Source of the DNA: Gracilibacillus oryzae
Lineage (GTDB): Bacteria; Bacillota; Bacilli; Bacillales; Amphibacillaceae
Assembly (NCBI RefSeq): GCF_009498735.1
Contig: NZ_ML762436.1
Span: forward strand, 38,725 to 99,385
Direction of reading: 5' to 3'
DNA length: 60,661 nucleotides
This document shows positions 35,017 through 37,836 of the stretch, in pieces. A model generated the notes under the pieces. That model made no database searches. It saw nothing but the letters and a program-made list of their open reading frames with translations, and had not been told where the DNA came from. Every line of letters starts with the position of its first letter. Positions within the stretch are counted from its first letter, which is position 1. The position numbers and the translations under genes are program-made.

Positions 35017-36165
35017 ATGAAAATCATAGTAGCAGGTGGAGATGGATTTTGCGGTTGGCCGACCGCTCTTTATTTATCACAGAAAGGCCATGATGTATCA
35101 ATTATTGACAGCATGGTAAGAAGAAAGATTGATAGCGAACTACATTCTAACTCTTTAACGCCAATAGCATCACTGGAAGAACGTGTTGCAAAGTGGAAAG
35201 AGCTTACAGGGAAAGAAATCCGGATATATGAAGGTGATCTAGTTCATTATGATTTCTTAAAAGAAGTGTTAAAAAGAGAGATGCCGGATGCTTTTGTTCA
35301 TTTTGCTGAACAGAGATCTGCACCATATTCTATGATTGATCGTGAACATGCTGTCTATACCCAGCATAACAATGTTACAGGAACATTAAATGTACTTTTT
35401 GCAATTAAAGAATTGGTTCCTGATTGTCATTTGATAAAATTGGGTACACTAGGAGAGTATGGAACACCGAATATTCAAATTGAAGAAGGATATATTGAAA
35501 TTGAGCACAAAGGCAGAAAAGATGTACTGCCGTTCCCTAAACAGCCAGGTTCTTTCTACCACTTATCTAAAGTACATGACAGCCATAACATTATGTTTGC
35601 ATGTAGAATCTGGGGTATACGTGCAACCGATTTAAATCAGGGAATTGTATATGGATTAGATACAGAAGAAACAAAGCTGGATCCTGTGCTTACAAATCGT
35701 TTAGATTATGATGGTGTTTTTGGAACCGCATTAAACAGGTTTATTATCCAGTCAACGATAGGTCATGATCTTACAGTTTACGGTAAAGGTGGACAAACTA
35801 GAGGATTTTTACATATTAAAGATACGGTTCGCTGTATTGAAATTGCTGCGGAAAATCCTGCAGATAAAGGTGAATTCCGTGTGTTTAACCAATTTACTGA
35901 AGAGCACAGTGTCGGAGATTTAGCAGCTAAGGTTAAGAAAGTAGCTGATGAGGAAGGCTTCCCGACAAATATTGCTAACTTGGAAAACCCAAGGGTAGAA
36001 TTGGAAGATCATTATTTCCATGCAGAAAATACAAAATTAAAGGACCTTGGTCTAGAGCCGCATTTATTAGATGAAGAAGTAATAAGAGAAATTCTGAGAA
36101 CGGTTGTACAACACAAAGATCGTGTAATTAAAGAGAATATATTGCCTCAAGTTACATGGAAATAA
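35017..36165 (+). CDS. sqdB: UDP-sulfoquinovose synthase (sulfolipid biosynthesis)
   Basis: 382 aa, extended SDR family. It makes UDP-sulfoquinovose from UDP-glucose and sulfite with bound NAD+, the head-group donor of sulfolipid. The NAD motif is GGDGFCGW (residues 7-14). The catalytic set Thr144, Tyr181 and Lys185 falls within one residue of plant SQD1 numbering, and signature blocks [14 protein letters not shown] and [12 protein letters not shown] are those of SQD1/SqdB rather than of ordinary epimerases. GAGGTG precedes ATG. First gene of a three-gene operon. Confidence 0.93.
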
Positions 36166-36205
36166 TTAATATGTGATAATATTTTACCGTTAAGGATGGT
36201 TCTTT

Positions 36206-37363
36206 ATGAAAATTTTAGTGATCACAGAAACATTCTTACCATCAACGGATGGAGTTGTGACTCGCTTAACTAACAGTATTCGCTATTTCTTAAAATCAGG
36301 TCATCAGGTGCAGATTATTGCACCTGATCTTGGCGTATATGAATTTGAGGGTGCAAAGGTGATAGGTGCAAAAGCAACAAGACTTTTTTTCTATCGCTCA
36401 AAGCAATTCGCACTGCCGTCAAGTAAAGTAAAACAAATGATACAGTCCTATGACCCTGATGTCATTCATGTAGTAAATCCTGCATTACTCGGAGCTTCAG
36501 GTGTCTATTATGCCAAAAAATTAGGTTATCCTCTGTTAGCATCCTACCATACTCAAGTGCCGAAATATGCAGATTATTATCATTTATCGATTTTTAAAGG
36601 GCTGTTATGGTGGTATTTCCGTAAATTGCATAACATGGCAGATTTAAATCTGTGTACATCGCAAGTCGTTCACCAAGAGTTAGTAGAGCAGGGCTTTAAC
36701 AATATTCATGTATGGAAAAGGGGTGTTGATACTACCTTGTATCATCCTCGTCATTATAATGATTCTATGCGTGAGAAACTAACAAATGGAGAAGTAAATA
36801 AAAAACTGCTATTATATGTTGGCAGATTAGCTCCGGAAAAAGAAATTGAAAAAATCAGAAATTTATTAGAAGCTTCTGATCAGTTTGTTCTTGCCATTGT
36901 TGGAGATGGTCCTCACCGGGAAGTGTTAGAAACTCATTTCCAAGGAACAAATACAGTCTTTACAGGCTATATGCATGGGCAGGAATTAGCAAGCGCCTAT
37001 GCTTCTTCGGACGTATTCGTCTTTCCATCCACAACGGAAACATTAGGATTAGTTATTACGGAGGCAATGGCTTCAGGATTGCCAATTGTCGCAGCTAAAA
37101 GTGGGCCAACCTGTGAGCAAATAGATGATGGACAAACTGGACTATTGTATGACCAGCATATAGATGGAGACTTTACACGGACCATTTTGCAATTTGAAGA
37201 TGAAACGTTACGAAAAAGACTTGCCAAAAAGGCACGTGATGAAATAGCTGATATGGGCTGGGATGCTCAATCGAAGCAGGTTCTAGATTTTTATCATGAA
37301 TTATCAGGATCCAAGCAGGCAAGTTATACAGACTTAGACAAGGAAAACGAGCAAAGTAAATAA
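36206..37363 (+). CDS. sqdX: GT4 glycosyltransferase, SqdX-like sulfoquinovosyltransferase
   Basis: 385 aa, GT-B fold family 4. The N-terminal part starts ILVITETFLPSTDGVVTRL, and the acceptor-side block ASYHTQVPKYADYYHL is typical of SQD2/SqdX and related diacylglycerol glycosyltransferases. The donor-site E-x7-E motif is in TETLGLVITEA near residue 275. Being directly behind sqdB, it very likely transfers sulfoquinovose to diacylglycerol to give SQDG at the inner membrane face. Alternative: a glucosyl- or mannosyl-transferase such as MgtA/PimB; the linkage to sqdB decides. AAGGATGG precedes ATG. Confidence 0.82.
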   Translation: MKILVITETFLPSTDGVVTRLTNSIRYFLKSGHQVQIIAPDLGVYEFEGAKVIGAKATRLFFYRSKQFALPSSKVKQMIQSYDPDVIHVVNPALLGASGVYYAKKLGYPLLASYHTQVPKYADYYHLSIFKGLLWWYFRKLHNMADLNLCTSQVVHQELVEQGFNNIHVWKRGVDTTLYHPRHYNDSMREKLTNGEVNKKLLLYVGRLAPEKEIEKIRNLLEASDQFVLAIVGDGPHREVLETHFQGTNTVFTGYMHGQELASAYASSDVFVFPSTTETLGLVITEAMASGLPIVAAKSGPTCEQIDDGQTGLLYDQHIDGDFTRTILQFEDETLRKRLAKKARDEIADMGWDAQSKQVLDFYHELSGSKQASYTDLDKENEQSK

Positions 37364-37386
37364 ACTTGCATCACTGGAGTGTCTTT

Positions 37387-37836
37387 ATGAGTACCGTAAA
37401 AAGAAAAAGTGGCCGTTTTCAGTTTTTACAATTTGGGATTATCGGTGTTGGTAATGCACTTATTGATATTGGAACACTTAACCTTTTATTATTACTTTTT
37501 TATACCGACGACAGAATGTTGTTGCTTGTCTATAATACCATTTCCTATAGTCTGGCTGTTGCAAACAGTTATTTTTGGAATGCCAGTGTGACTTTCAATC
37601 GAACATCAGAAGGAAGCAATTATCAACGAATTGGCTTTTTTATTCAAGCACTTATTAGTCTGGGAATCAGCAATATTGTATTTATTGGACTGAACAGCCT
37701 GATGGAATGGTTAGGAGTGCTTAATTGGTTAAGGTATAATCTCGCCAAAGGACTCGCAATGCTTCTTTCCTCTTTAGCTAGTTTTTTTATGGTAAAATAT
37801 TATGTTTTTAAAGATTATAAAAAGAGAAATGTATAA
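37387..37836 (+). CDS. GtrA family membrane protein
   Basis: 149 aa with four membrane helices, the GtrA form: FLQFGIIGVGNALIDIGTLN, NSYFWNASVTF, and a final basic tail after FFMVKYYVFKDYKK. GtrA proteins are thought to flip or present lipid-linked sugars. ATG at 37387 has GGAG 8 nt upstream and is preferred over 37366, which overlaps no ribosome site. It ends the sulfolipid operon and may handle the lipid product or its carrier; this role is inference from position. Confidence 0.82.
   Translation: MSTVKRKSGRFQFLQFGIIGVGNALIDIGTLNLLLLLFYTDDRMLLLVYNTISYSLAVANSYFWNASVTFNRTSEGSNYQRIGFFIQALISLGISNIVFIGLNSLMEWLGVLNWLRYNLAKGLAMLLSSLASFFMVKYYVFKDYKKRNV

Follow-up and report, generated by a model that had tools for sequence, protein, structure and literature searches.

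A predicted sqdB-sqdX-gtrA sulfolipid operon in Gracilibacillus oryzae and its associated branch of GtrA membrane proteins

In a stretch of 60,661 nucleotides from Gracilibacillus oryzae (assembly GCF_009498735.1, contig NZ_ML762436.1, positions 38,725 to 99,385; hereafter the window), three consecutive genes very probably form an operon for sulfoquinovosyl diacylglycerol (SQDG), with a GtrA-type protein as the pathway-associated membrane partner. The genes, sqdB, a glycosyltransferase family 4 (GT4) gene resembling sqdX, and gtrA, are co-directional and separated by gaps of 40 bp and 23 bp (Table 1), and their positions, strand, and order agree with those given in an earlier reading made without database searches (the sequence-only reading). 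In the proposed pathway, SqdB would convert UDP-glucose and sulfite into UDP-sulfoquinovose, the SqdX-type GT4 would transfer sulfoquinovose to diacylglycerol at the cytoplasmic face of the membrane, and GtrA would most likely either translocate the completed sulfolipid through the bilayer or hold SqdX at the membrane. The two enzymatic steps are predicted from family membership and phylogeny. Sequence, phylogeny, gene order, and co-occurrence all speak for the interpretation as a sulfolipid operon, which that reading had already advanced.

The first product is the predicted UDP-sulfoquinovose synthase SqdB/SQD1. A phmmer comparison with Arabidopsis SQD1 (1QRR) gave 2.5e-167 and 560 bits, with residues 2-382 aligned without gaps to residues 3-383 of the 1QRR chain at 62% identity. 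The catalytic set of SQD1, numbered Thr145/Tyr182/Lys186 (PMC4388408), falls in this alignment on Thr144/Tyr181/Lys185, the residues by which the sequence-only reading had recognized the enzyme; the full-length match and the conservation described below bear out that assignment. The NCBIfam equivalog NF041015 was scored at 491.6 bits, under its cut-off of 575, but of the two control genomes in which this model was matched, Synechococcus elongatus and Sulfolobus acidocaldarius, only one exceeds the cut-off, so that the cut-off does not seem to bound the family.

At a presence threshold of E<=1e-60, and with the G. oryzae genome counted in every draw, SqdB was found in 89 of 397 genomes of the order, in 29 of 61 genomes in a draw of relatives, and in 7 of 398 genomes in a draw from the phylum. 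The claim that SQDG is chiefly a lipid of photosynthetic organisms is weakened by the first of these counts, since sqdB is not rare in the order, while the accompanying remark that the lipid has been described for Bacillus coahuilensis stands as published. The surroundings of 100 of 106 sqdB places were fetched, representing 98 genomes and leaving out G159, G258, G280, G336, G357, and G397. Based on blastp identity to the window protein, these loci comprise two kinds, class I (73-100%, 75 loci) and class II (44-47%, 25 loci). Additionally, a scan of named genomes, limited in its flanks, provided the 80 best loci, which belong to cyanobacteria, Acidobacteria, and one Desulfatirhabdium and encode SqdB proteins 61-68% identical to that of the window. 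Thr144/Tyr181/Lys185 is present in all 180 aligned sequences, comprising 75/75 of class I (window included), 25/25 of class II, and 80/80 of the best named loci.

In a tree of 63 SqdB sequences, constructed like the other trees of this analysis by a quick procedure without bootstrap, class I and two genomes from elsewhere in the phylum form one group (support 100), which adjoins cyanobacteria, some Acidobacteria, and plant SQD1 (81). The class II sequences join those of Sinorhizobium, Marinovum, and Rhodococcus (100). The two classes seem to correspond to the pair of SQD1/SqdB clades that Sato described, where Bacillus-like bacteria are unmentioned in the passages available (PMC8227023, PMC6946739). 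Both classes occur together in one genome in two cases, L049 with L064 (G004) and L056 with L082 (G026).

The second product matches PF00534 (2.2e-31) and PF13439 (1.5e-30) and is, on phylogenetic grounds, orthologous to the sqdB-linked GT4 of cyanobacteria, with diacylglycerol as the putative acceptor and UDP-sulfoquinovose as the putative donor. The cyanobacterial gene is presumably SqdX, as judged from its proximity to sqdB. GT4 proteins 42-47% identical to that of the window lie near sqdB in 50 of the 80 best named loci (47 cyanobacterial and 3 acidobacterial; on the opposite strand in one of them, L143) and were not found within the fetched flanks of the other 30. With Geitlerinema SqdX as the query, the window GT4 was the top match in its own genome, at 372.6 bits versus 230 for the next. 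Its identity to cyanobacterial SqdX is 43% in the first half, the acceptor side, and 45-46% in the second half, against 35/36% for the nearest paralog, and fourteen positions conserved across SqdX and the GT4 of the order are different in both own-genome paralogs. A GT4 tree of 66 rows included 20 of the 50 cyanobacterial and acidobacterial sequences (17 and 3, respectively) and the two own paralogs, with long branches, as the outgroup. The GT4 of the order (93) are sister to the cyanobacterial and acidobacterial GT4 (91), and the paralogs L167 and L168 lie outside the SqdX group (98 by the Shimodaira-Hasegawa-like approximate likelihood ratio test, SH-aLRT). This is the phylogeny that the sequence-only reading had proposed as a check of its SqdX-like call; measured against these two paralogs, the GT4 did not fall among unrelated glycosyltransferases.

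Gene order and co-occurrence point in the same direction. A GT4 gene lies within 800 bp downstream of sqdB in 75/75 class I loci, being partial in L210. SqdB and SqdX-like GT4 are found together in 88 of 397 genomes and one-sidedly in only 2, SqdB alone in G138, where both SqdB and GT4 are partial, and GT4 alone in G061. The SqdX-like GT4 of the latter genome (L243, 54%), in which neither SqdB nor GtrA is matched at the thresholds used, branches first in the GT4 group of the order, and another sugar is possible. Two other functional names were tried for the window GT4 and rejected, glucosaminyl-phosphatidylglycerol synthase (NF053787, 167.8 against a cut-off of 480) and monoglucosyl-diacylglycerol synthase (NF049988, 92.2 against 400). 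Geitlerinema SqdX scores similarly on both models (162.9 and 102.8), and because it gives the same weak pattern, these matches do not name the GT4 function.

The third product matches PF04138 at 3.9e-15 (56.5 bits against a cut-off of 26.1) and is the single match to this family in its own genome at E<=0.01. Its association with the pathway is a genomic observation. When the subfamily is defined by E<=1e-8 to the GtrA of the window, it occurs in 66 of 397 genomes, 63 of which carry sqdB (Fisher p 5e-48, kinship not corrected); the remaining three are G068 and G230, with weak matches (3e-9 and 2e-10), and G262 (6e-31). In class I, gtrA follows the GT4 gene within 800 bp in 52 of 75 loci. Among the 23 others, seven have the gene elsewhere in the genome (at L235-L240 and L242), L210 with its partial GT4 being one of these, and L061 lies at a contig edge, with GtrA beginning another contig of the same genome. 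Both GT4 and gtrA are adjacent to sqdB in 11 of 25 class II loci and neither is in 14, which means that in class II an adjacent GT4 is always accompanied by gtrA. In G388 and G340, the GT4-gtrA pair (L246 and L247) lies apart from class II sqdB, and G050 possesses a second such pair (L248) besides the linked one (L062). Outside the order but within the phylum, the arrangement is gtrA-sqdB-GT4 in L285 and sqdB-GT4-gtrA in L284; at four other sqdB loci of the phylum (L286-L289), neither partner was found in the fetched stretch, save for a weak GtrA-model match in L288. The linkage is retained with sqdB of another clade and in a rearranged gene order.

Several loci depart from these arrangements. 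The 14 class II sqdB genes without an adjacent co-directional GT4 are L064, L083, L174, L176, L178, L180, L181, L183, L185, L187, L188, L190, L191, and L193. Several of these genomes carry a GT4 elsewhere (L244, L246, L247, L249-L254), and in L190 and L191 a GT4 is located about 3 kb off on the opposite strand, without gtrA. In L288 (G787), an SqdB of 51% identity is near a GT2-like protein (recognized by eye) with a GtrA-model match at 1.9e-5, an arrangement for which a polyprenyl route for sulfoquinovose is possible.

The sqdB-associated GtrA looks like a branch tied to the sulfolipid pathway, as judged from a tree and a set of key residues. The tree contained 106 sequences, comprising 76 of the subfamily (63 beside sqdB-GT4, 11 from other places, including that of G262, and 2 from elsewhere in the phylum) and 30 other GtrA of the order, and a branch with support of 100 places all 76 on one side against the 30 others, although the selection of the latter by highest Pfam score may make the separation look sharper. 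Residues were matched to Listeria GtcA, a member of the same family (PF04138), by motif spacing (F91/F84, K121/K121, F141/F141) and not by aligning GtcA. N65, F70, F84, K121, and F141 are common to the subfamily and most other GtrA, but three positions differ. The position matching Arg95 of GtcA is occupied in the subfamily by A (53), G (19), S (2), or V (2) and in the others by N (26) or R (4); that matching Asn132 is S in 74 of the 76, with one T and one gap, and N in 29 of the others, with one T. Directly before the first of these, Q87 is found in 75/76, where the 30 others have V/I/L. The window protein itself has Q87, A88, and S132, the last two standing where GtcA has Arg95 and Asn132. 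In Listeria, the GtcA variants R95A and N132A are defective in lipoteichoic acid and wall teichoic acid glycosylation, the R95A protein being made at a slightly lower level (PMC7389260). A change of GtrA substrate would fit the replacement of residues matching those essential in GtcA, while the swap could also reflect loss of transport instead.

On this basis, it can tentatively be proposed, as a reading with rather less than an even chance, that the branch was re-purposed from the handling of polyprenyl-phosphate sugars and flips SQDG, a charged glycoglycerolipid, to the outer leaflet. If this is true, GtrA would be a dedicated SQDG translocase, for which no precedent was found in the literature searched for GtrA with sulfolipid or sulfoquinovose, and the Ala/Gly and Ser swaps, together with the nearly invariant adjacent Gln, would mark a new GtrA substrate.

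A number of observations weigh against the operon with GtrA as its partner. The characterized GtrA relatives are thought to handle polyprenyl-phosphate sugars, not glycerolipids (PMC7389260). At the threshold used, the subfamily is absent from 26 of the 89 sqdB genomes of the order, and three of these (G029, G042, and G071) have no PF04138 match at all at E<=1e-4, so that GtrA should be dispensable for SQDG synthesis as such. No GtrA-model match was found near sqdB within the limited flanks of the best 80 named loci. The sequence-only reading had asked whether the linkage is constant, and the answer is mixed: gtrA follows the GT4 at the linked loci counted above, is located elsewhere in seven further genomes, and is lacking as this subfamily in these 26. 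Additionally, Leu145 (codon 35449-35451) replaces an active-site Met in the SqdB of the window; in Agl3, the Ala mutant of Met145 is inactive (PMC4388408). In the alignment, Leu145 is present in 11 of 75 class I loci, window included, all within the genus, and Met145 is retained in the other 64, in 25/25 of class II, and in 80/80 of the best named loci. The exchange is a conservative one and may leave the function intact.

Different roles for GtrA can be weighed on the same evidence. A GT4 gene and gtrA that remain together away from class II sqdB, as in L246 and L247, would suit a GtrA that anchors or recruits SqdX at the membrane without any transport; an anchoring role has been proposed for Rv3789, another GtrA protein (PMC7389260). 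However, 26 genomes use sqdB without the subfamily, and in L235-L240 and L242 gtrA is solitary and remote from sqdX, which leaves the anchor a doubtful but still serious candidate. A place beside sqdBX by chance, or as a co-regulated bystander, is very improbable: the GtrA family is widespread in the order, with members in 159 of 249 genomes, and the 26 subfamily-less genomes would agree with mere coincidence, but the subfamily itself is nearly specific to sqdB genomes, forms one group against the 30 other GtrA, and keeps its link through the other sqdB clade and through rearrangement.

Another scheme departs from SQDG altogether and envisages a three-component system in which the GT4 loads sulfoquinovose onto undecaprenyl phosphate (C55-P), GtrA flips the product, and a GT-C enzyme transfers the sugar outside to a wall polymer or S-layer. 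GtrA family members have indeed been proposed as C55-P-sugar flippases (PMC7389260), and sulfoquinovose is present in the N-glycans of Sulfolobus (PMC9594981). Against this, the GT4 groups with SqdX, no GT-C enzyme is present among the Pfam-scanned neighbors at 27.9-51.7 kb (where some open reading frames were unscanned, the rest of the genome being unsearched), and the positions of Arg95 and Asn132 depart from the family norm (A/G/S/V in 76/76 and S in 74/76, against N/R in 30/30 and N in 29/30 of the other GtrA), so this scheme is judged improbable. The SQDG operon with a pathway-associated GtrA is the interpretation retained here.

The sequence-only reading had also presented SQDG in Bacillus-like bacteria as a way to spare phosphate, a published rationale in Bacillus coahuilensis (PMC4744853), in the spirit of which the operon could be a phosphate-starvation lipid-exchange module under PhoP. 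Two features of the wider neighborhood would accord with such a module: polyphosphate kinase and Ppx/GppA phosphatase genes lie at 41679-45447 on the minus strand, 4 kb from the operon, and the contig also carries pstS, some 42 kb upstream of sqdB and about 7 kb before the start of the window. PhoP boxes were scanned as TTHAYA repeats with an 11-bp period and a maximum score of 24, in 100 sqdB upstream regions (16 of the genus) cut from the first possible start codon. As a positive control, the region upstream of the best pstS match in each of 17 genus genomes was scored, six weaker PstS-like matches (L278-L283) being left out, and reached 23-24 in 16 of the 17, including the own genome. By comparison, none of the 100 sqdB upstream regions scores 22 or more, p<=0.05 is reached in 5 of 74 class I regions (L219, with only about 110 bp upstream, being left out of this test) and in 2 of 25 class II regions, which is about chance level, and no site of 23 or more occurs in the whole window. 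Because strong boxes are lacking before sqdB while the control scores 23-24, direct PhoP control is unlikely, and so is the module as a whole. The phosphate-sparing rationale remains as published, without the phosphate control being seen in the sqdB promoter; there may be other regulation, or phosphate may be spared through constant synthesis.

Bacillaceae sulfolipids are not new in themselves. Three strains of B. coahuilensis have been reported to carry sqd1/sqdX and to contain membrane sulfolipids, with data not shown there (PMC4744853); the sulfolipid genes of this species are also treated in PMC9594981 and PMC2890564, and the polar lipids of Oceanobacillus massiliensis include SQDG (PMC4062624). 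The B. coahuilensis genes resemble those of the window as sulfolipid genes of Bacillaceae, but gtrA is not mentioned in the available portions of these accounts, a comparison made by description only. The literature searched for GtrA with sulfolipid or sulfoquinovose yielded no paper linking them, apart from an unrelated review of Synechocystis metabolism. Since Bacillaceae sulfolipid is published and the GtrA link was not found, the enzyme pair is of a known kind and GtrA is the new element.

Comparison with systems from other bacteria and plants leads to a similar picture. The cyanobacterial sqdB-sqdX genes and plant SQD1/SQD2 resemble the present ones in SqdB and, through the cyanobacterial and acidobacterial loci, in the GT4, but differ in that the window has a tight unit with gtrA. 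Rhizobial and roseobacterial sqdB operons (sqdBDC) also have a UDP-sulfoquinovose synthase gene in first place; their SqdB, however, belongs to the other clade, nearest to the class II of some genomes of the order, and the second gene is annotated as "glycosyl transferase" in Sinorhizobium (L321) and as Glycogenin-1 in Marinovum (L323).

Table 1. Features of the predicted sulfolipid operon and its immediate surroundings (positions in the window)
Feature	Position	Strand	Remarks
Sigma-A-like promoter match TTAAAA-18-TATAAT	34904..34933	+	Upstream of sqdB; consensus match only
sqdB (predicted SQD1-type UDP-sulfoquinovose synthase, class I)	35017..36165	+	382 aa
sqdX-like GT4, putative sulfoquinovosyl-diacylglycerol synthase	36206..37363	+	385 aa
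gtrA-type membrane protein, sqdB-associated subfamily	37387..37836	+	149 aa; ATG 37387; TTG 37366 possible
osmC-like gene	37903..38295	+	PF02566 6.3e-22; co-directional, 66 bp downstream of gtrA
yfkD	38357..39121	+	YfkD PF14167 3.6e-91; co-directional with the operon
Terminator-like hairpin	39131..39153	+	After yfkD; first on the + strand past gtrA (scan)

For gtrA, the ATG start is preferred over the TTG, as GGAG occurs 7 bases before it (by eye). The promoter match before sqdB is weak because 23 such matches were found in the region compared with 20.9 expected, and the TAAA that lies between the hexamers (34915-34918) is shared unchanged by 15/15 aligned upstream regions (14 from the genus and one from the family). 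Terminator-like hairpins number 6 in the region against 2.8 expected. The osmC-like gene, located after gtrA in 7 of 40 loci, each of them within the genus, is possibly co-transcribed with the operon and outside the pathway, and a longer transcript running through it and yfkD to the hairpin is possible. No riboswitch or other RNA upstream of sqdB was detected with Rfam, the sole match in the window being an S-adenosylmethionine (SAM) riboswitch at 11610-11717 on the minus strand (98 bits). It precedes MetNIQ-like ATP-binding cassette transporter genes (8796-11444, minus strand), an ordinary set of NIL-domain ATPase, permease, and NlpA lipoprotein. A plasmid origin was rejected, as 22 plasmid records match and none reaches 60%, and viral copies were dropped after a single distant GT4 stretch (31%).

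Operons of the sqdB-sqdX-gtrA type, together with relatives with and without gtrA, offer a way to test how SQDG, an abundant sulfolipid, passes through membranes or is distributed in them. Because 89 of 397 genomes of the order carry sqdB, the pathway extends beyond photosynthetic organisms and is more than the adaptation of one lagoon isolate. In addition, the residue signature described here may help to split GtrA, a large and poorly known family of membrane proteins.

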